Positions 41,137 through 47,444 of a stretch of DNA of 64,000 nucleotides are shown here, piece by piece; position 1 is the stretch's first letter, and every line of letters begins with the position of its first letter. The stretch covers positions 1,302,001 through 1,366,000 of the forward strand of contig NZ_JACJOT010000008.1 of the NCBI RefSeq assembly GCF_014695715.1. The letters are read 5' to 3'. A program made the position numbers and the translations under genes. The DNA is from Microcoleus sp. FACHB-68. Its GTDB lineage: Bacteria > Cyanobacteriota > Cyanobacteriia > Cyanobacteriales > Oscillatoriaceae. The notes below the pieces were generated by a model that did no database searches, was not told where the DNA came from, and was given only the letters and a program-made list of their open reading frames with translations.

Positions 41137-41742
41137 ATGCCGTTGAAATTTTCTCAGGATATTGAGTCACTTCTCAAACGATTATCCGAAACTTCTCTTA
41201 CCCTCGCAGATATTATCACAGAAACAAAGGAACGGGGATTTAGCCTAGTTATTGGCTTGATTACGTTACCCTTTTTGTTTCCCATGCCACCCGGATTGAC
41301 TGCTGTTTTAGGGATCGGCAGCTTGCTTTTAGCTGCACAGATGGCCCTAGGCCGGCGCACCCCTTGGCTGCCAAAAAAAGTTGCTCAGTTTCAATTTCCC
41401 CACGCATTTGTCCTACTACTGTTAAAAAATCTCAAGAAAATCACCCGCATTTTGGAAAAATTGACCAAGCGCCGGTTGCCGCGAATCGCAGACAATCCCC
41501 GCGTTTGGCAAATGAATGGAGTTTGTATTGCTTGGCTGACGCTGTTACTGATGTTGCCAATTCCTTTTACAAACCCGATCCCCACGATTGGAATTTTGCT
41601 GTTTGTTGTTGCGACTTTAGAATCGGATGGTTTATTAATTTGTATTAGCTATATCTTGACTCTTTTAATTACCTTGTTGTTTGCGTTCATTATTTATACT
41701 CTCTGGCACACACCCGGTCTATTACAAAATCTGTTTCAATAA
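41137..41742 (+). CDS. ExoD-like exopolysaccharide synthesis protein
   Basis: A 201-aa inner-membrane protein of the ExoD family, with about four TM helices. The hallmark segment GFSLVIGLITLPFLFPMPPGLT (residues about 32-53, positively charged flanks) and the repeat-like LMLPIPFTNPIPTIGILLF near residue 145 are clear. ExoD in rhizobia affects exopolysaccharide production and alkali tolerance; the molecular role is unknown. It fits the surrounding glycan genes. Confidence 0.85.
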   Translation: MPLKFSQDIESLLKRLSETSLTLADIITETKERGFSLVIGLITLPFLFPMPPGLTAVLGIGSLLLAAQMALGRRTPWLPKKVAQFQFPHAFVLLLLKNLKKITRILEKLTKRRLPRIADNPRVWQMNGVCIAWLTLLLMLPIPFTNPIPTIGILLFVVATLESDGLLICISYILTLLITLLFAFIIYTLWHTPGLLQNLFQ

Positions 41743-41756
41743 CACCCTTGACACTT

Positions 41757-42100
41757 GATGATGTTACGTGCTATGTTCTTACGCAATGACATCTAAGATC
41801 AGCATCCAGCTTAAAACGTGGGCTGCTGTCTCAGATGCGGTATAAAACGGCGGTTCTTGCTCTAGTAAGGTACAGACGCCATCGTCAGAAGCCTTACTAG
41901 CTATAAGTCTCAAACCCTATTGAGAACCGAACAAATAGCAATTTGTGATCTAGCAAAGTACAGAGGTACTTGTCAAAAGGGTTACTAGATCTAATCGAGG
42001 TTATACCTTCGATGACAAAGAATTGCTACCAAGTAATACCGCACCTGAGACATCAGCTCACACCTAGCACCACTTAAACGTGTTCGCTTAGTGTGAGTTG
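41757..42100 (+). ncRNA. Candidate structured RNA upstream of HNH gene
   Basis: No coding gene fits here, yet the strand folds remarkably well. A closing helix pairs 41822-41843 with 42036-42057 (20 of 22 positions). Inside are a perfect 9-bp stem (41862-41870/41892-41900) with a nested GACG/CGTC, a 5-bp hairpin (41908-41925), a 6-bp hairpin (41931-41946), a 7-bp stem (41947-41953/41985-41991) containing AAGTAC/GTACTT, and ATCGAGG/CCTTCGAT (41994-42013). Loop AACCCT (41913-41918) is the exact complement of AGGGTT (41978-41983), a likely pseudoknot. A 3' hairpin pairs 42057-42068 with 42086-42097. The layout recalls HEARO/omega RNAs beside HNH ORFs, but identity with those is not established. 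Not recognised as RNase P RNA, tmRNA, 6S or a group I/II intron. Confidence 0.65.
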
Positions 42101-42300
42101 TTCTCATTTTATGGACTTGTATTTGGGAAATTATCCCTATATCCTGAGTAATCCAGCAGTAGCATTCTTTACTACTTCTGAATTGCCGTTATTGGGAAAT
42201 ATTTCTCTGTTGCAAGTCTTTTGAGCAAAACTCCGTGAGTGCTAGATGCGTAATCTACCAAAGCTGTCATGTAAATAAATCGCAAAAAGGAAGCGTAAAC

Positions 42301-42558
42301 ATGGCAAAAAAGAGTTCAAAGCGAATGAGTTCAAAGCAAAAGCGCAATGCAAGAGAGAAACTCATCGCTTTAGACGGTTCATATTGTGCTTGGTGCGGGA
42401 AAGAACTACTTGAAGATCAGTTAACAATTGACCACTTTACTCCCTTAAGCAAAGGCGGATCTAACTCTTTTGAAAACTTGCGGCTTGCTTGTTCGCCGTG
42501 CAACAAGTGGCGCGGAAATAGTCGATTCCCTCCTGGCTGGAAACCCGTAACCTGTTGA
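42301..42558 (+). CDS. Small stand-alone HNH endonuclease
   Basis: An 85-aa basic protein. Residues 1-24 are Lys/Arg/Ser-rich, and the remainder is an HNH treble-clef fold: Cys29 and Cys32 (CAWC), the catalytic Asp44-His45 (TIDHFTPLSKGG), Asn59 in FENLRLAC, and Cys64/Cys67 (CSPCN). There is no RuvC, helicase or intron-maturase domain. ATG 42301 is fixed by AAGGAAG 7 nt upstream; an upstream GTG at 42235 has no such site. It follows the structured RNA by about 200 nt and ends in its own hairpin, so RNA and gene look like one unit. It may be a homing-type nuclease. Confidence 0.85.
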   Translation: MAKKSSKRMSSKQKRNAREKLIALDGSYCAWCGKELLEDQLTIDHFTPLSKGGSNSFENLRLACSPCNKWRGNSRFPPGWKPVTC

Positions 42559-42593
42559 TAACCGGCACCCAAAACTTGTAAAAATATTTATTA

Positions 42594-42620
42594 GGCGGGT
42601 AGGTATCCTACCTGCCCTTT
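42594..42620 (+). terminator. Hairpin terminator after HNH gene
   Basis: GGCGGGTAGG (42594-42603) pairs with CCTACCTGCC (42607-42616), one G-U, over a 3-nt loop, then CTTT. It ends the HNH transcript 36 bp past its stop and precedes rnc by about 40 bp. Confidence 0.75.
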
Positions 42621-42658
42621 CCGTGCGGTGAATGAACTTAGCAAGAAAAGAGATAACA

Positions 42659-43342
42659 ATGACAAAAATTCCACAATTTAAAGATGAATCTCTTTTGCGC
42701 CTTGCACTAACTCATCGTTCTTATGTTAACGAACACCCGGATGAACGTGAAAACAATGAGCGTTTAGAATTTTTAGGGGATGCTGTGCTGGGTTATTTGG
42801 TCGGTGAACTGCTTTATAAGCGTTATGATGATATGACCGAGGCGCAACTAACGCGCTTGCGCTCTGCTTTGGTAGACGAAAAGCAGTTAGCAAAATTTGC
42901 AAGTCAGCTAGGCATCGGTGATTTAATGCGGCTAGGTAAAGGCGCAGATAAAGATGGAGGCCGGCAAAACCCATCATTGCTCAGTGATACCTTTGAAGCG
43001 ATTATCGGCGCGTACTTTCTCGATTCAACAATTACTCCAGTTCGTGCTTTTATAAATAAGCTATTTATTCCTGTAGCAGACAGCATTATTTTTCCCGATT
43101 CTGATGAAGACCCTAAGAATCTCGTAGACTCGAAAAATCGGTTTCAACAATGGGCGCTAGCAAAATTTGGGCAAAATCCTGACTATGCAATTATTGATGA
43201 GGATGGGCCGGCACACGCGAAAGAGTTCACGGCTGAAGTGTATGTTAAAGGAAAAATGTACGGAGTTGGCAAGGGCCGGCGCAAACAAGATGCTGAAAAA
43301 CGAGCTGCTGAAGTGGCATTGAGAAAGGTTGGTTTGGTGTAA
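42659..43342 (+). CDS. rnc: Ribonuclease III
   Basis: A 227-aa double-strand-specific endoribonuclease for rRNA, mRNA and antisense processing. The catalytic domain has the family signature NNERLEFLGDAVLG near residue 31 and the second acidic site DTFEAIIGAYFLDS near residue 110. A C-terminal dsRNA-binding domain ends in GKGRRKQDAEKRAAEVAL. I chose ATG 42659 because the conserved domain starts about 9 residues after it; an ATG at 42632 is an alternative that adds 9 residues. Cyanobacteria often carry more than one RNase III, so this may not be the only copy. Confidence 0.95.
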   Translation: MTKIPQFKDESLLRLALTHRSYVNEHPDERENNERLEFLGDAVLGYLVGELLYKRYDDMTEAQLTRLRSALVDEKQLAKFASQLGIGDLMRLGKGADKDGGRQNPSLLSDTFEAIIGAYFLDSTITPVRAFINKLFIPVADSIIFPDSDEDPKNLVDSKNRFQQWALAKFGQNPDYAIIDEDGPAHAKEFTAEVYVKGKMYGVGKGRRKQDAEKRAAEVALRKVGLV

Positions 43343-43737
43343 TTCTAAAATAGCTGCTTATTGCTGAAGGAAAACAGTGGATTACTATTAAAAAAAATCA
43401 TAGCGAATTTTTTATTCAGTTTTCCATAATGCGAAACTTGCATAAGTTAGCTTTTTGTTTTAAAACCGCAGATGATAGCCCAGCTTGCCGTTAGGTTTAT
43501 GCAGGTAAATGCCGATAAGCTTAATGATTAAAAATGTCTTTAATTGTGGGATTATAAGATTTTTATTTAAACACAAACGGCTTTTTTACTAAATTCGCCG
43601 AAAGAAAACTTAACTCTGGCAAATGTCATCAAATCTTTAACCTTTAGAAATACTGAAGATTTAAAAAAAAATGAAGTTTTTTAAGGCTTTCGGGGTGATG
43701 ATCTAGAGTGGGTGTTTATACAGGAGGTATGACTAAC
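43343..43737. other. Spacer between rnc and the first TPR gene
   Basis: About 390 bp, AT-rich, with no supported gene. AAACCGCAGATGATAG near 43463 resembles one unit of the CGCAGAT decamer family seen at 26311. Confidence 0.5.
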
Positions 43738-45210
43738 GTGAGTGCAATCCACGATGAAAAATTAGAGCTAGAACCAAATAGCAATAGGGATTTATACCGG
43801 GAAGGTAATGCTTTTCTGGATAGAGGCCGCTACGAAGAAGCGATTGCCAGTTATGACAAAGCTTTAGAACAGGAACCGGCAGACTATTGGGTGTGGTATA
43901 ACCGGGGCATCGCTTTGGATGAATTAAACCGGCACGAAGAAGCAGCCGCCAGCTTTGGAAAAGCCTTGGAATTGCGCCCGGACGACTACTGGGCAACTTA
44001 CCAGCGCGGCGAGGCTTACCGGCACGCACGCTGCTACGAAGATGCCCTTGCCAGCTACAATCGAGCGGTGGAACTGCGGCCCAAAGACTACTGGGCGTGG
44101 TATAAACGGGGATGTGTGGCGTTGTATGACTTGCACCGGCATGAAGATGCCCTCACCAGTTTTGAGAAAGCCATTGAAAACCGCTGGTGGGACTACTGGG
44201 CATACTACCGGCGCAGTGAAACCTTGCACCAGATGGGACGCTATGAAGAGGCTTTGGTAAGCTACAGCGAAGTGCTGGAAATGAGACCCAATGACGCTGC
44301 CGGCTGGTACAATCGCGCTCAATTACTCGACGATTTAGGCCGGCATGAAGACGCCCTCGTTAGCTATGATTGCGCCCTCGATATTAACCCCGAAATCACC
44401 GAAGCTTGGTATTTGCGGGGCTTAGCGCTGGGAAATTTAGGAAGTTACGGAAAAGCCATTGCCAGCTTCGAGAAAGTGCTGGAATTGCAACCCAATCACC
44501 CAGAAGCTTTACTCAACCGCGCCATTACCCTAGATGAATTAGAATGCCCGGAAGAGTCCCTCGCCGGCTTTGATCAACTTCTCACAATTCAACCCGACAA
44601 CCCAGAAGCTTGGTTTAACCGGGGCATTGCCTTGGGCCACTTAGGCCGGCATGAAGAGGCCATTGCCAGTTACGAACACGCTTTAAAATGGCAACCAAAC
44701 TATCCAGAAGCCTGGAATAACCGGGGCATGGCATTCGATGAGTTAGGCCGGTACGAAGCGGCTATTGCCAGTTATGATCAAGCCTTAGCCCGCCGGCCTG
44801 ATTACGCCAGAGCACTGAATAACCGAGGCATTGCCCTTGCTAAATTAGGCTGTGCCGACGATGCGATTGCCAGCTACGATCAGGCTTTAAAATGCCCCCC
44901 AGACTATCCCGAAGCTTGGACTTGGAACAACCGCGCCCAAGCATTGCGGCAATTAGGTCGCATTGAAGACGCCCTTGCCAGTTACGATCAATCAATGGAG
45001 ATTGAACCGGAAGAACCGGATACTTGGTACGGTCAAGCTTGCTGCTATGCCTTACAGGGAAATGTGCAACAGGCAATTGAGAAATTAGAACAAGCAATTT
45101 TGATCGATCCCGATCAATACCGGCATCTTGCCGGCAATACTTCAGATTTTGACAGCATTCGATCATCCGAACAATTTCAGGCTTTGATTGCAGGAAAAAG
45201 TCACCATTGA
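43738..45210 (+). CDS. TPR-repeat protein, 13 repeats
   Basis: A 490-aa protein made almost entirely of thirteen 34-residue tetratricopeptide repeats with the consensus YxRGxALxxLGRxEEAIASYDKALE, many ending in the distinctive DYWAWY. It has no catalytic domain and no signal peptide. The last repeat starts with ACCYALQGNVQQAIE and is followed by a short FDSIRSSEQFQALI tail shared with the three other TPR proteins here. It likely forms a superhelical scaffold for protein partners. Start choice: AGGAGG at 43722-43727 is only 1 nt from ATG 43729 but 10 nt from GTG 43738, so the GTG is favoured. Confidence 0.85.
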   Translation: MSAIHDEKLELEPNSNRDLYREGNAFLDRGRYEEAIASYDKALEQEPADYWVWYNRGIALDELNRHEEAAASFGKALELRPDDYWATYQRGEAYRHARCYEDALASYNRAVELRPKDYWAWYKRGCVALYDLHRHEDALTSFEKAIENRWWDYWAYYRRSETLHQMGRYEEALVSYSEVLEMRPNDAAGWYNRAQLLDDLGRHEDALVSYDCALDINPEITEAWYLRGLALGNLGSYGKAIASFEKVLELQPNHPEALLNRAITLDELECPEESLAGFDQLLTIQPDNPEAWFNRGIALGHLGRHEEAIASYEHALKWQPNYPEAWNNRGMAFDELGRYEAAIASYDQALARRPDYARALNNRGIALAKLGCADDAIASYDQALKCPPDYPEAWTWNNRAQALRQLGRIEDALASYDQSMEIEPEEPDTWYGQACCYALQGNVQQAIEKLEQAILIDPDQYRHLAGNTSDFDSIRSSEQFQALIAGKSHH

Positions 45211-45383
45211 GAAGAGAAATTCTGAATGGGTGAGTGTGTGAATTTTAAAAGAGATTCTTCCATTCAAAATTCACCCATTCAAAATTATTTTCCCTTCACT
45301 TTGGATTGTGCTTAAGGGTAACACTTTCAAAGTTCAGTTCCCCTTATACTCAATTCAAAATTGCACTACTGCTGGGGGTTTAG

Positions 45384-46313
45384 ATGAGCCACAAAGAAGA
45401 ATCTCAAGCCTTGGAAATACAGGGTAGCGTCTTAGAAGACCCCACCCCCACGGCAGCCATGAACGCCGGCGAAAAGCAAGCACCGGCAGCCGGCACAAAT
45501 GAGTATCTGGATTACTACAAACGCGGTAGCGTCCTCCACAATGCAGGCCGGCTTGAAGACGCTTTGGCTAGCTACGACCAAGCCTTAGAATTACGACCGG
45601 ATGATTATTGGGCTTGGTATCAGCGCGGCAACGTCCTCGACGACTTAGGCCGGCATGAAGAAGCGGTTACCAGCTACAACAAAGCCCTGGAAGTGCGCCC
45701 GGATGACTACTGGGCTTGGTATCATCGCGGCATCGCCTTACAAGACTTAAAATGTTACGAACAATCTCTCGCTAGCTACGAAAAAGCCTTAGAATTACGA
45801 CCAAATGACTACTGGGCTTGGTATCAGCGCGGCATCGCCCTAGATGATTTAGGCCGGCTAGAAGATGCCCTCACCTCCTTCGACAAAGCCCTAGACATCA
45901 AACCCCATGACTACTGGGCACAATACCGGCGTGGGGAAGCGCTGCGTCATGCCGGCGATTATGAAGCCGCAATTACCAGCTACAATCAAGCTTTAGAAAT
46001 CAAGCAGGATGATTACTGGGCATGGCATCGGCGAGGTCTGGCCCAGGAACGCTTAGGTCGCATTGAAGACGCCCTTGCCAGTTTTGACAAAGCCCTGGAA
46101 ACGAAACCGAATGACCCGGAAGCGTGTTATGACAAGGCTTGCTGTTATGCCGGTTTGGGTAATGTTGAGAAGGCGATCCAAAACTTGCGCTACGCCATCA
46201 ATCAAAATCCTGACCTTTACAGCAAACTTGCTAAAAAAGACGCAAAATTTAACGCCATTCGCAGAGATAATCGGTTTTTGACGTTAATAGAAGGTAACGA
46301 GGGGAATGATTGA
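45384..46313 (+). CDS. TPR-repeat protein, 7 repeats
   Basis: A 309-aa paralogue of the previous product. After a 45-residue polar N-terminus come seven TPR units, five of which end in DYWAW or DYWAQ, and the shared C-terminal ACCYAGLGNVEKAIQNLRYAI module followed by KFNAIRRDNRFLTLIEG. It lies 173 bp after the first TPR gene. Same scaffold role inferred. Partners are unknown. Confidence 0.85.
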   Translation: MSHKEESQALEIQGSVLEDPTPTAAMNAGEKQAPAAGTNEYLDYYKRGSVLHNAGRLEDALASYDQALELRPDDYWAWYQRGNVLDDLGRHEEAVTSYNKALEVRPDDYWAWYHRGIALQDLKCYEQSLASYEKALELRPNDYWAWYQRGIALDDLGRLEDALTSFDKALDIKPHDYWAQYRRGEALRHAGDYEAAITSYNQALEIKQDDYWAWHRRGLAQERLGRIEDALASFDKALETKPNDPEACYDKACCYAGLGNVEKAIQNLRYAINQNPDLYSKLAKKDAKFNAIRRDNRFLTLIEGNEGND

Positions 46314-46317
46314 TAGG

Positions 46318-46344
46318 GGCATGGGGGATTGGGCATGGGGGATT
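46318..46344. repeat. Short direct repeat
   Basis: GGCATGGGGGATT occurs at 46318-46330 and 46332-46344, just after the second TPR gene. A slippage-prone G-rich stretch of a type common in cyanobacterial spacers. Confidence 0.7.
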
Positions 46345-46445
46345 TTCACGCCCTCTGTCCTTCCTAGTCCTTAGCTTCTAGTCCCTAGCTACTCCCAATT
46401 CTCATATACTGAGAATTAGAAGCTATTCCGTGTACCGCTGTCTTT

Positions 46446-47444
46446 ATGAGTCCCTATCAAGCCTTTCACGCGCTACGCATCCCTAGCGGTCATAATGACG
46501 TAATGGCGAGTTATAACAAAAATTTGGAATGCCGGCCCGATGGCTACTGGGCTTTGTATCAGCGCGGGAATGCCCTGCGGCAGGCGGGTCTTTATGAGGA
46601 CGCCCTTGATAGCTATGAAGAAGCCTTAGCCTGCCGGTCAGATGACTACCGCGCTTGGCATCAGCGTGGAAACGTACTGGCAGAATTACGCCGGTATAAC
46701 GATGGCATTGCCAGCTATGACAAAGCGTTGGCGCTAAAACCGGCATACTACTGGAGTTGGTATCAGCGGGGTCATGCATTGCGTAATGCGGGCCGGTATC
46801 GCGACGCCGTTGCCAGCTTCAACAAAGCTTTGGAAATTCGACCGGATGACTACTGGGCTTTGTATCACCGGGCAAGCATTTTCCTGTATAACTTGAACCG
46901 ATCTGAGGAAGCGCTTGCCGGCTACGATCAAGCTTTGGAACTCAGGCCAAAAGACTACTGGAGTTGGTACAGGCGGGGTATCGCACTGTTTGGCCTGAGT
47001 CGCTATCAAGATGCCATTGCCAGCTATGACAAAGCCTTAGAATTCAGGCCGCGCGACTATTGGGCCATTTACCGGCAGGGCGATGCCTTACTGTGGTTAG
47101 GCCGGTATGAGGATGCTATTGCCGGTTATGATCGCGCCGTCGATATTCAACCCGACTACCCAGACGCCTGGGTTTATCGGGGTCTGGCGTTGCAGCTTTC
47201 AGGCAGAACTCGCGATGCCATTGCCAGCTATGATCAAGCGCTGGAACTCGATTCCTATGTCTCCGATGCCTGGTATGGCAAGGCTTGCTGTTATGCCTCA
47301 CAAGGTGATGTGCGGCGGACAATCGAACACCTGCAAAAAGCGTTTGAGCTGAGTCCTGATGAGTACCGGCAGCCAGCCACCGCTGAGCCGGCTTTTGATG
47401 CGATTCGCGCTTCTGAGCAGTTTCAGGCATTGCTGCAAGATTAA
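46446..47444 (+). CDS. TPR-repeat protein, 8 repeats
   Basis: A 332-aa third paralogue with one partial and eight full TPR units, again rich in DYWALY or DYWSWY ends. The C-terminal module KACCYASQGDVRRTIEHLQK and the tail FDAIRASEQFQALLQD match the other two. The ATG at 46446 precedes about 20 residues not similar to TPR; an ATG at 46503 would begin almost at the repeats. The three adjacent copies probably arose by gene duplication. Confidence 0.8.
   Translation: MSPYQAFHALRIPSGHNDVMASYNKNLECRPDGYWALYQRGNALRQAGLYEDALDSYEEALACRSDDYRAWHQRGNVLAELRRYNDGIASYDKALALKPAYYWSWYQRGHALRNAGRYRDAVASFNKALEIRPDDYWALYHRASIFLYNLNRSEEALAGYDQALELRPKDYWSWYRRGIALFGLSRYQDAIASYDKALEFRPRDYWAIYRQGDALLWLGRYEDAIAGYDRAVDIQPDYPDAWVYRGLALQLSGRTRDAIASYDQALELDSYVSDAWYGKACCYASQGDVRRTIEHLQKAFELSPDEYRQPATAEPAFDAIRASEQFQALLQD

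Follow-up and report, generated by a model that had tools for sequence, protein, structure and literature searches.

The long hairpin described here precedes a gene pair consisting of an exchangeable nuclease gene and the ribonuclease III gene (rnc), and it marks this pair and not one of the two genes alone. We consider it somewhat better than an even bet (probability of roughly 55%) that the hairpin serves as 5' leader to an operon made up of the nuclease gene and rnc and that it is a target of RNase III, which would provide feedback on the operon with the nuclease as co-expressed and replaceable constituent. The locus is located in a stretch of 64,000 nucleotides of the Microcoleus sp. FACHB-68 genome, which is called the window throughout this paper.

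Architecture of the window locus

The spacer between the stop of the ExoD gene (41742) and the start of the HNH gene (42301) comprises 558 nt and not about 340 nt, as indicated in a first-pass annotation of this DNA. The leader and the genes behind it involve the following features:

41748..41777, + strand: promoter-like site of the sigma-70 type, TTGACA-18-TATGTT, its second hexamer preceded by TG; the one such site found in 41650-42720
41818..42061, + strand: HP1, a long RNA hairpin closed by the helix of 41818-41843 with 42036-42061 (24 of 26 positions paired)
41828..41833, + strand: GUCUCA, 5' half of the basal helix motif (3' half UGAGAC at 42046-42051); same letters in the other hairpin type
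41844..42035, + strand: variable HP1 interior, five hairpins in the window; from the comparison of seven genomes
42057..42097, + strand: small hairpin CUCACAC..GUGUGAG, seen by eye; both halves in seven of seven genomes (GUGUGGG in G449)
42096..42234 (about), + strand: HP2, second long hairpin, 47 chained pairs, z -5.4
42301..42558, + strand: HNH nuclease gene, 85 aa plus stop; above the Pfam cut-offs for HNH, HNH_5 and HNH_4
42594..42616, + strand: stem-loop between HNH and rnc with a weak T run; kept in G001 and G002
42659..43342, + strand: rnc for ribonuclease III (227 aa, with 42632 as alternative start); 230 bits with NCBIfam TIGR02191 (cut-off 166.25)

The closing helix reported in the first-pass annotation (41822-41843 with 42036-42057) does pair at 20 of 22 positions, and the five hairpins within it are present in the minimum free energy structure. 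Folding of the HP1 region (261 nt) yielded -94.9 kcal/mol compared with a shuffled mean of -58.3 (z -8.07), and none of 200 shuffles was as low. For the entire leader a z-value of -6.66 was obtained with 0 of 100 shuffles equally low. The small hairpin at 42057-42097 overlaps the last five bases of HP1 and, judged from its letters, would compete with them. A pseudoknot-type match (AACCCT/AGGGTT) had also been proposed. It exists at 41913-41918 with 41978-41983, but the HP1 interior that holds it differs or is missing in five of the seven genomes with a window-type leader. A conserved open reading frame of about 37 codons starting from the ATG at 42111 inside HP2 was considered and dropped, because its conservation follows the HP2 helix. 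Tandem Repeats Finder returned 0 rows for window positions 41700-42650 at score 30, and the relatives were viewed by eye.

The 85-aa open reading frame at 42301-42558 is a real HNH gene, as the first-pass annotation had proposed, with Pfam matches to HNH and HNH_5. By eye, the protein is of the H-N-N type and carries two CxxC pairs. Its NCBIfam matches (IscB, Cas9d, TIGR02646, Cas9, PtuB) all remained below cut-off, with IscB and Cas9d scoring best; the IscB model covers the protein only at model positions 179-238 of 314 and yielded 45.2 bits compared with a cut-off of 175. The best 25 of 49 PADLOC matches mainly involved the HNH part of the PtuB and Cas9 models, and neither Pfam nor NCBIfam detected a second domain such as RuvC in the 85 residues. 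By its amino acid sequence, the protein is an HNH domain of the IscB/Cas9/PtuB kind that stands alone. It shares the domain family with the HNH parts of PtuB/retron and Cas9/IscB proteins, which are among its best matches, but it differs from them by its scores below the NCBIfam cut-offs and by consisting of the HNH domain only.

Directly downstream of the HNH gene lies rnc, which is absent from the first-pass annotation and which decides the interpretation of the locus. Its product carries an RNase III domain and a dsRBD, both above cut-off. The genome contains two RNase III-domain matches, of which the one at this locus is the stronger and the other (contig C15) reaches 54.5 bits. The gap between HNH and rnc measures 100 nt and holds the stem-loop at 42594-42616. 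This stem-loop, which the first-pass annotation had taken for a terminator, misses the terminator consensus, and 0 terminators were found in 41650-42720. Downstream of rnc, window positions 43708-47444 carry three consecutive genes for TPR-repeat-like proteins (by eye).

When the window leader was compared with Rfam, no match was obtained at gathering score, and six weak matches near the leader were all far below their gathering scores. HEARO (RF02033) did not match 41600-42700 with E-values up to 10, and at gathering score there was no RF02033 match in the window leader, in L009-L011 or in 18 further loci. Rfam introns (group I/II) did not match the leader either. The sole Rfam match among the leader and locus scans was an unrelated c-di-AMP riboswitch (RF00379, 64.5 bits, L066:5367-5582), located about 1.1 kb downstream of HNH in Anabaena sp. 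4-3.

Open reading frames of HEARO/omega elements encode PLMP plus RuvC (IscB/IsrB) or PLMP plus HNH (IshB). Of these, IsrB has no HNH domain and the relative with HNH alone is IshB, which makes the earlier wording of RuvC-HNH proteins such as IsrB inaccurate. The window locus resembles these systems in that a structured RNA lies just upstream of an HNH open reading frame of the IscB/Cas9 kind, and one might therefore think of the omega/HEARO RNA of a decayed IscB, IsrB or IshB element. We consider this reading extremely improbable, since Rfam and HEARO gave no match within the limits described above, the 85-aa product holds the HNH domain only, the locus adjoins rnc in many families and the hairpin is retained when an NYN gene replaces HNH. 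There is also no sign of mobility: one place was found per genome (in the window's genome and in 30 genomes matched by the covariance model described below) and phages and plasmids gave no match. Together with the lack of an Rfam match and of RuvC, this speaks against the mobile RNA-guided element that the first-pass annotation had envisaged.

Hairpin families and their conservation at the RNA level

A DNA search detected the window-type leader in four of 100 relatives (window's genome included) and in four of 20 genomes of the family of G070, with G070 counted again, which gives a total of seven genomes. In these genomes two flanking blocks are kept, and the HP1 interior is common only to pairs of close genomes or is absent. 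It is the same in the window and G002, different in G001 and in G070/G442, and nearly or wholly gone in G457 and G449. HP1 lengths amount to 244, 246, 165, 165, 165, 86 and 64 nt, and the closing helix of 26 positions is retained throughout. Within this helix, changes on both sides were observed at three positions, one C-U mismatch is constant in all seven genomes and one position is paired in two of seven only. For HP2 (six sequences), 90.2% of the aligned cells were paired and both-side changes were found in eight of 46 pairs, compared with 4.7 in shuffles and 2-4 in slid controls. The number of further pair types in HP2 was no better than in shuffles (196 of 500 as high).

When the phylum was searched with the 3' part of the leader, 13 of 386 genomes gave hits, which were the window's own and 12 weak short matches. 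One of them (G318) was rejected as a chance match, since it lies inside a 427-aa open reading frame unrelated to HNH or rnc; the remaining 11 were all short, with E-values of 0.0008-0.009. Elsewhere in the window's genome the leader was not found. Phages and plasmids gave no match to the leader DNA, a search that targets of about 20 nt would escape, and in three viral contigs a 16-mer of the 3' arm was present and the 5' arm absent. A mobile element or phage origin of the leader was rejected, since the genome, phage and plasmid searches yielded nothing for it.

The leaders of Phormidesmis, Acaryochloris, Calothrix, Chamaesiphon, Richelia, Stenomitos, Lyngbya and others have one hairpin of about 164 nt in common. 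A covariance model built from 15 leaders of this family matched 30 of 388 genomes of the class at one place each. Behind these 30 hairpins we found HNH plus rnc in 24 cases, NYN plus rnc in four, a 219-aa open reading frame plus rnc in one and a transposase-like open reading frame in one. The latter (L171:3-1310, - strand, G678; assigned by eye) occupies the place of the nuclease gene. The model did not detect the window hairpin, nor those of L015, L017, L022, L063, L101, L155, L163 and L201, and thus there are at least two kinds of hairpin. The GUCUCA/UGAGAC foot is common to both kinds. Within the ~164-nt family, GUCUCA is present in 29 of 36 sequences and the other seven carry GUCUUA/UAAGAC, a compensated change; in L018/L066 the motif reads GUCGCA/UGCGAC.

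In an alignment of 36 sequences of the ~164-nt family, from which duplicate loci and the lowest-scoring rows (L199, L200, L162, L018/L066) had been excluded, 93.3% of the cells were paired and the mean column identity was 68% across families. Both-side changes occurred in 32 of 53 pairs compared with 18.5 in shuffles and 10-15 in slid controls; since the structure was derived from 15 of the 36 rows, it had an advantage in the comparison with the slid controls. The number of both-side-change cells was 167 compared with 56.5. These counts say nothing on the association with neighbouring genes, because most of the sequences were found with the model of the same hairpin. The first-pass annotation was right in that the RNA is structured, covaries and is not due to chance, and in its tie to a nuclease, but a HEARO/omega-type or mobile RNA-guided element is not supported.

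The promoter-like site upstream of the window hairpin is no evidence when taken alone, because 2.1 such sites are expected in shuffles of 41650-42720. Across 48 loci, some of which are related rows, an exact TTGACA was present at most 110 nt upstream of the hairpin in 38 (expected 2.4), and in 27 of the 48 a distance of 29-34 nt separates the end of the best-fitting second hexamer from the hairpin. From these positions an RNA that starts just before the hairpin is expected, and for the window the predicted start is close to 41784. In the same set, with the same kinship among rows, folding favours the sense strand in 42 of 48 loci. The window and G002 belong to the other six; in both, the antisense strand folds slightly better.

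These data bear on the question of whether the repeat acts as DNA, i.e. as a cruciform, a MITE or a nuclease target. The long inverted repeat as such would fit, the antisense strand also scores with the covariance model (both palindrome strands match it, giving 93 rows, and one strand per locus was used), the HP1 interior turns over by insertion and deletion, and antisense folding is better in six of 48 loci with the window among them. However, sense folding is better in the other 42, G-U cells outnumber A-C cells (294 vs. 50) in a structure that was fitted to the sense strand, TTGACA lies upstream at a near-fixed distance and the hairpin occupies one place per genome. A DNA palindrome is therefore very improbable in our judgment.

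Linkage to the nuclease–rnc pair and exchange of the nuclease

Among 24 close HNH homologues (L012-L035; relatives and window), 13 are accompanied by rnc in the same orientation at a distance of up to 1.5 kb, and in one the HNH is fused to a dsRBD. The leader z-values of the rnc-linked loci go down to -15.3 among the rows listed, and the lowest of the ten unlinked ones is -4.2. Two of the unlinked homologues, L029 (G006) and L032 (G003), carry one in-frame TAG each and are possibly pseudogenes.

A scan of 84,980 genomes with an alignment of 13 HNH proteins of this kind returned 61 loci, 48 of which are cyanobacterial. We defined a long hairpin as a chain of at least 40 pairs with z of -3 or lower in the 450 nt before HNH. 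By this definition, 14 of 16 rnc-linked HNH loci chosen by protein have a long hairpin compared with two of 32 unlinked ones (Fisher 3e-8, a value that ignores kinship among rows that are not independent). HNH genes retained without the RNA, which the first-pass annotation had named as evidence against its proposal, do occur, namely among the genes that do not adjoin rnc (30 of 32 lack a long hairpin). One linked locus, L064, lies at the threshold (40 pairs, z -3.2). Among the linked loci, only the fusion L069 (HNH–dsRBD) and L101 (29 pairs, z -5.1) lack a long hairpin; the two unlinked loci with one are L108, which by its appearance is a different repeat, and L110 (Lyngbya aestuarii), where a member of the hairpin family precedes HNH and no rnc was found in the 4 kb downstream. 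HNH homologues are also present on three Nostocaceae plasmids that are predicted to be conjugative (AP018310, AP018182, NZ_CP117771), and that of the Nostoc carneum plasmid (L082) neither adjoins rnc nor has a long hairpin.

The reverse comparison started from 30 rnc loci (relatives and window), in which NYN genes were sought with six NYN proteins from hairpin loci. Six of these loci have HNH upstream, four NYN and 20 neither; three of the ten nuclease-linked loci belong to the window's genus, window included. The same hairpin criterion was applied within 1.5 kb upstream, with only the 220-nt segment holding the longest chain being scored, and a long hairpin was present in seven of ten loci with HNH or NYN compared with 0 of 20 without. 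Split by nuclease, there were three of six HNH loci, each of them from the genus of the window, and four of four NYN loci, the latter including L166, which was re-examined with more upstream DNA as L201. The criterion was missed by the HNH–rnc loci L144 (44 pairs, z -1.4), L159 (57 pairs, z -2.7) and L156, which carries a distant HNH (36% identity). Among the 20 rnc genes without slot nuclease, L143 just misses the criterion (39 pairs, z -3.7). The 450 nt upstream of rnc in L142 and L147 of this group are strongly structured (z -7.5 and -6.0) and form shorter strong hairpins. In G053, the NYN–rnc linkage prompted a look further upstream, and the hairpin predicted from it was found (64 chained pairs, z -11.8). 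From the HNH-chosen and the rnc-chosen counts we conclude that the long hairpin marks the nuclease–rnc pair and not HNH or rnc alone, and since 0 of 20 rnc genes without slot nuclease have one, it is not a general rnc operator.

The distance between the slot gene, i.e. the gene between hairpin and rnc, and rnc itself varies. In 14 of 51 loci the two overlap or are at most 35 nt apart, which supports one transcript there. In the other 37 the gap is at least 45 nt (45-224, one 964), many of these gaps carrying a stem-loop and some a promoter-like site (by eye). For such loci, the window included, co-transcription of slot gene and rnc is a presumption.

Among the 74 rows of an RNase III tree, 42 form a well-supported group (100/100) made up of 34 HNH-linked rows, seven NYN-linked rows and one row with the 219-aa open reading frame (L177, labelled 'none'). 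Two of the NYN rows are the same locus and many rows of this group were found via the hairpin model; all of its 41 distinct loci have a long hairpin. The starred branches force at least three changes for NYN. The window rnc and its type are among 29 other rows, 18 of them without slot nuclease. This pattern suggests that the hairpin stayed while HNH and NYN replaced each other and that an unrelated nuclease has taken over the slot on more than one occasion. Other slot contents are rarer. G457 has hairpin and rnc without an HNH or NYN gene, and in G449 the minimal 64-nt hairpin precedes, at a contig end, a RelE/YoeB-like open reading frame (L169:1748-2041) that remains below curated cut-offs. 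Searches of Pfam, PADLOC and NCBIfam at E 0.01 left the 219-aa open reading frame of L177 (745-1401, - strand) without a match; its N-terminal residues are similar to those of the HNH proteins. In L201 of G053 (2097-2785), antitoxin-like and PIN-toxin-like open reading frames, VapBC-like by eye, lie between NYN and rnc.

A fusion protein of 165 aa, in which HNH is joined to the C-terminal dsRNA-binding part of RNase III, is encoded in L020 (1210-1704, - strand) and in L069 (Prochloron didemni). As proof of a partnership between HNH and RNase III this finding is weakened, because it may be a simple deletion in an HNH–rnc operon and because the fusion leader has no long hairpin.

With RNase III, an IscB/Cas9d-like HNH (below cut-off) and a long double-stranded RNA side by side, one may ask whether RNase III dices the hairpin and whether the IscB/Cas9-type HNH uses the pieces as guides. 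The HNH–dsRBD fusion and the differences in the window-type HP1 interior between lineages would be compatible with such a module. We regard it as very improbable, however. The ~164-nt hairpin is conserved throughout between families (at the column identity given above) and thus carries no freely varying guide; the window leader matched neither phages and plasmids nor the rest of the genome, with the above restriction for targets of about 20 nt; NYN replaces HNH behind the same hairpin family; and 85 aa would leave little space for a guide-binding part.

Proposed control of the operon by RNase III

A long double-stranded RNA leader that heads an operon ending in RNase III points to cutting by this enzyme and to feedback, as for E. 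coli rnc. E. coli RNase III cuts its own 5' UTR, and titration by abundant targets is the stated logic (PMC8708148, PMC5371410). In rncO of the rnc–era leader described there, the 5' end of an operon with the RNase III gene is likewise structured and double-stranded, and a long double-stranded structure in this position is also what we find here, with HNH and the 100-nt gap intervening in the window. The likeness concerns the layout. Here, the hairpin measures 64-246 nt (about 164 in the other type), has a conserved foot motif, and a nuclease gene precedes rnc.

On this basis we propose that transcripts from the putative promoter just upstream would form a very long hairpin, or two of them, which RNase III, the last product of the operon, would bind and cut. 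Leader cutting would expose the mRNA to decay and could keep RNase III and its partner nuclease at a defined level. While the enzyme is occupied by other double-stranded RNA (rRNA precursors, antisense duplexes, foreign dsRNA), the leader would remain uncut and the operon would be boosted. The slot gene, HNH here and NYN elsewhere, would encode a nuclease that is regulated together with RNase III, can be replaced and probably belongs to the same RNA pathway.

The main rival reading holds that the nuclease is what has to be controlled. RNase III cutting of the leader would keep a harmful nuclease of the HNH, NYN or RelE type off, and loss or overload of RNase III, e.g. during phage infection, would free it. 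This would agree with the unrelated contents of the slot (HNH, NYN, one RelE/YoeB-like open reading frame below cut-off, one of 219 aa) and with the hairpin–HNH arrangement without rnc in Lyngbya. The lack of a long hairpin before rnc without slot gene (0 of 20), together with L110 and G449, also suggests that the nuclease may be the controlled component. Moreover, RNase III is essential in B. subtilis via its action on prophage toxin genes, according to the part of a review on cyanobacterial RNA decay used here (PMC10989914). On the other hand, G457 retains hairpin and rnc without HNH or NYN, and the PADLOC matches of the HNH (best 25 of 49) are mainly to the HNH part of PtuB/Cas9; the toxicity that this reading supposes is hypothetical. 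The linked rnc is also the stronger RNase III match in the window's genome, which would be unusual for an accessory module. We consider such a toxin-like or guard module possible at low probability. A related proposal, which we regard as doubtful, is a dsRNA-response module of three parts (hairpin, RNase III and a swappable nuclease), in which the hairpin would report free RNase III activity; foreign or excess dsRNA would titrate the enzyme, leave the hairpin uncut and thereby release the nuclease (HNH, NYN, perhaps RelE).

Two other known arrangements resemble the operon that we propose. The type III toxin–antitoxin system ToxIN also has an RNA element before a nuclease gene under one promoter, but here the window leader lacks tandem repeats, the hairpin is long and an RNase III gene is attached. 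In the Mini-III (mrnC)–rlmB–rae1 (NYN) cluster of Firmicutes an NYN nuclease lies beside an RNase III-family gene, but here the RNase III is canonical with a dsRBD, a hairpin leader is present and HNH can replace NYN. The three RNase III homologues of Synechococcus 7002 are reportedly the subject of a paper. Searches of the literature on cyanobacterial RNase III/rnc, HNH, NYN and IscB relatives gave nothing on this locus among the matches listed, and the passages used of the above review (PMC10989914) give one to three RNase III genes per species and name no nuclease partner. These literature searches and the Rfam release searched suggest that the hairpin family is new.

Taken together, a cyanobacterial RNase III gene is tied to interchangeable nucleases by a family of hairpin RNAs that has no counterpart in the Rfam release searched. 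If RNase III cuts the hairpin, this would be a second, independently built RNase III operator beside that of E. coli, and it would offer a direct handle on why some cyanobacterial rnc genes have a nuclease partner. If the nuclease is freed when RNase III is overloaded, the locus would represent a bacterial dsRNA alarm built around RNase III.
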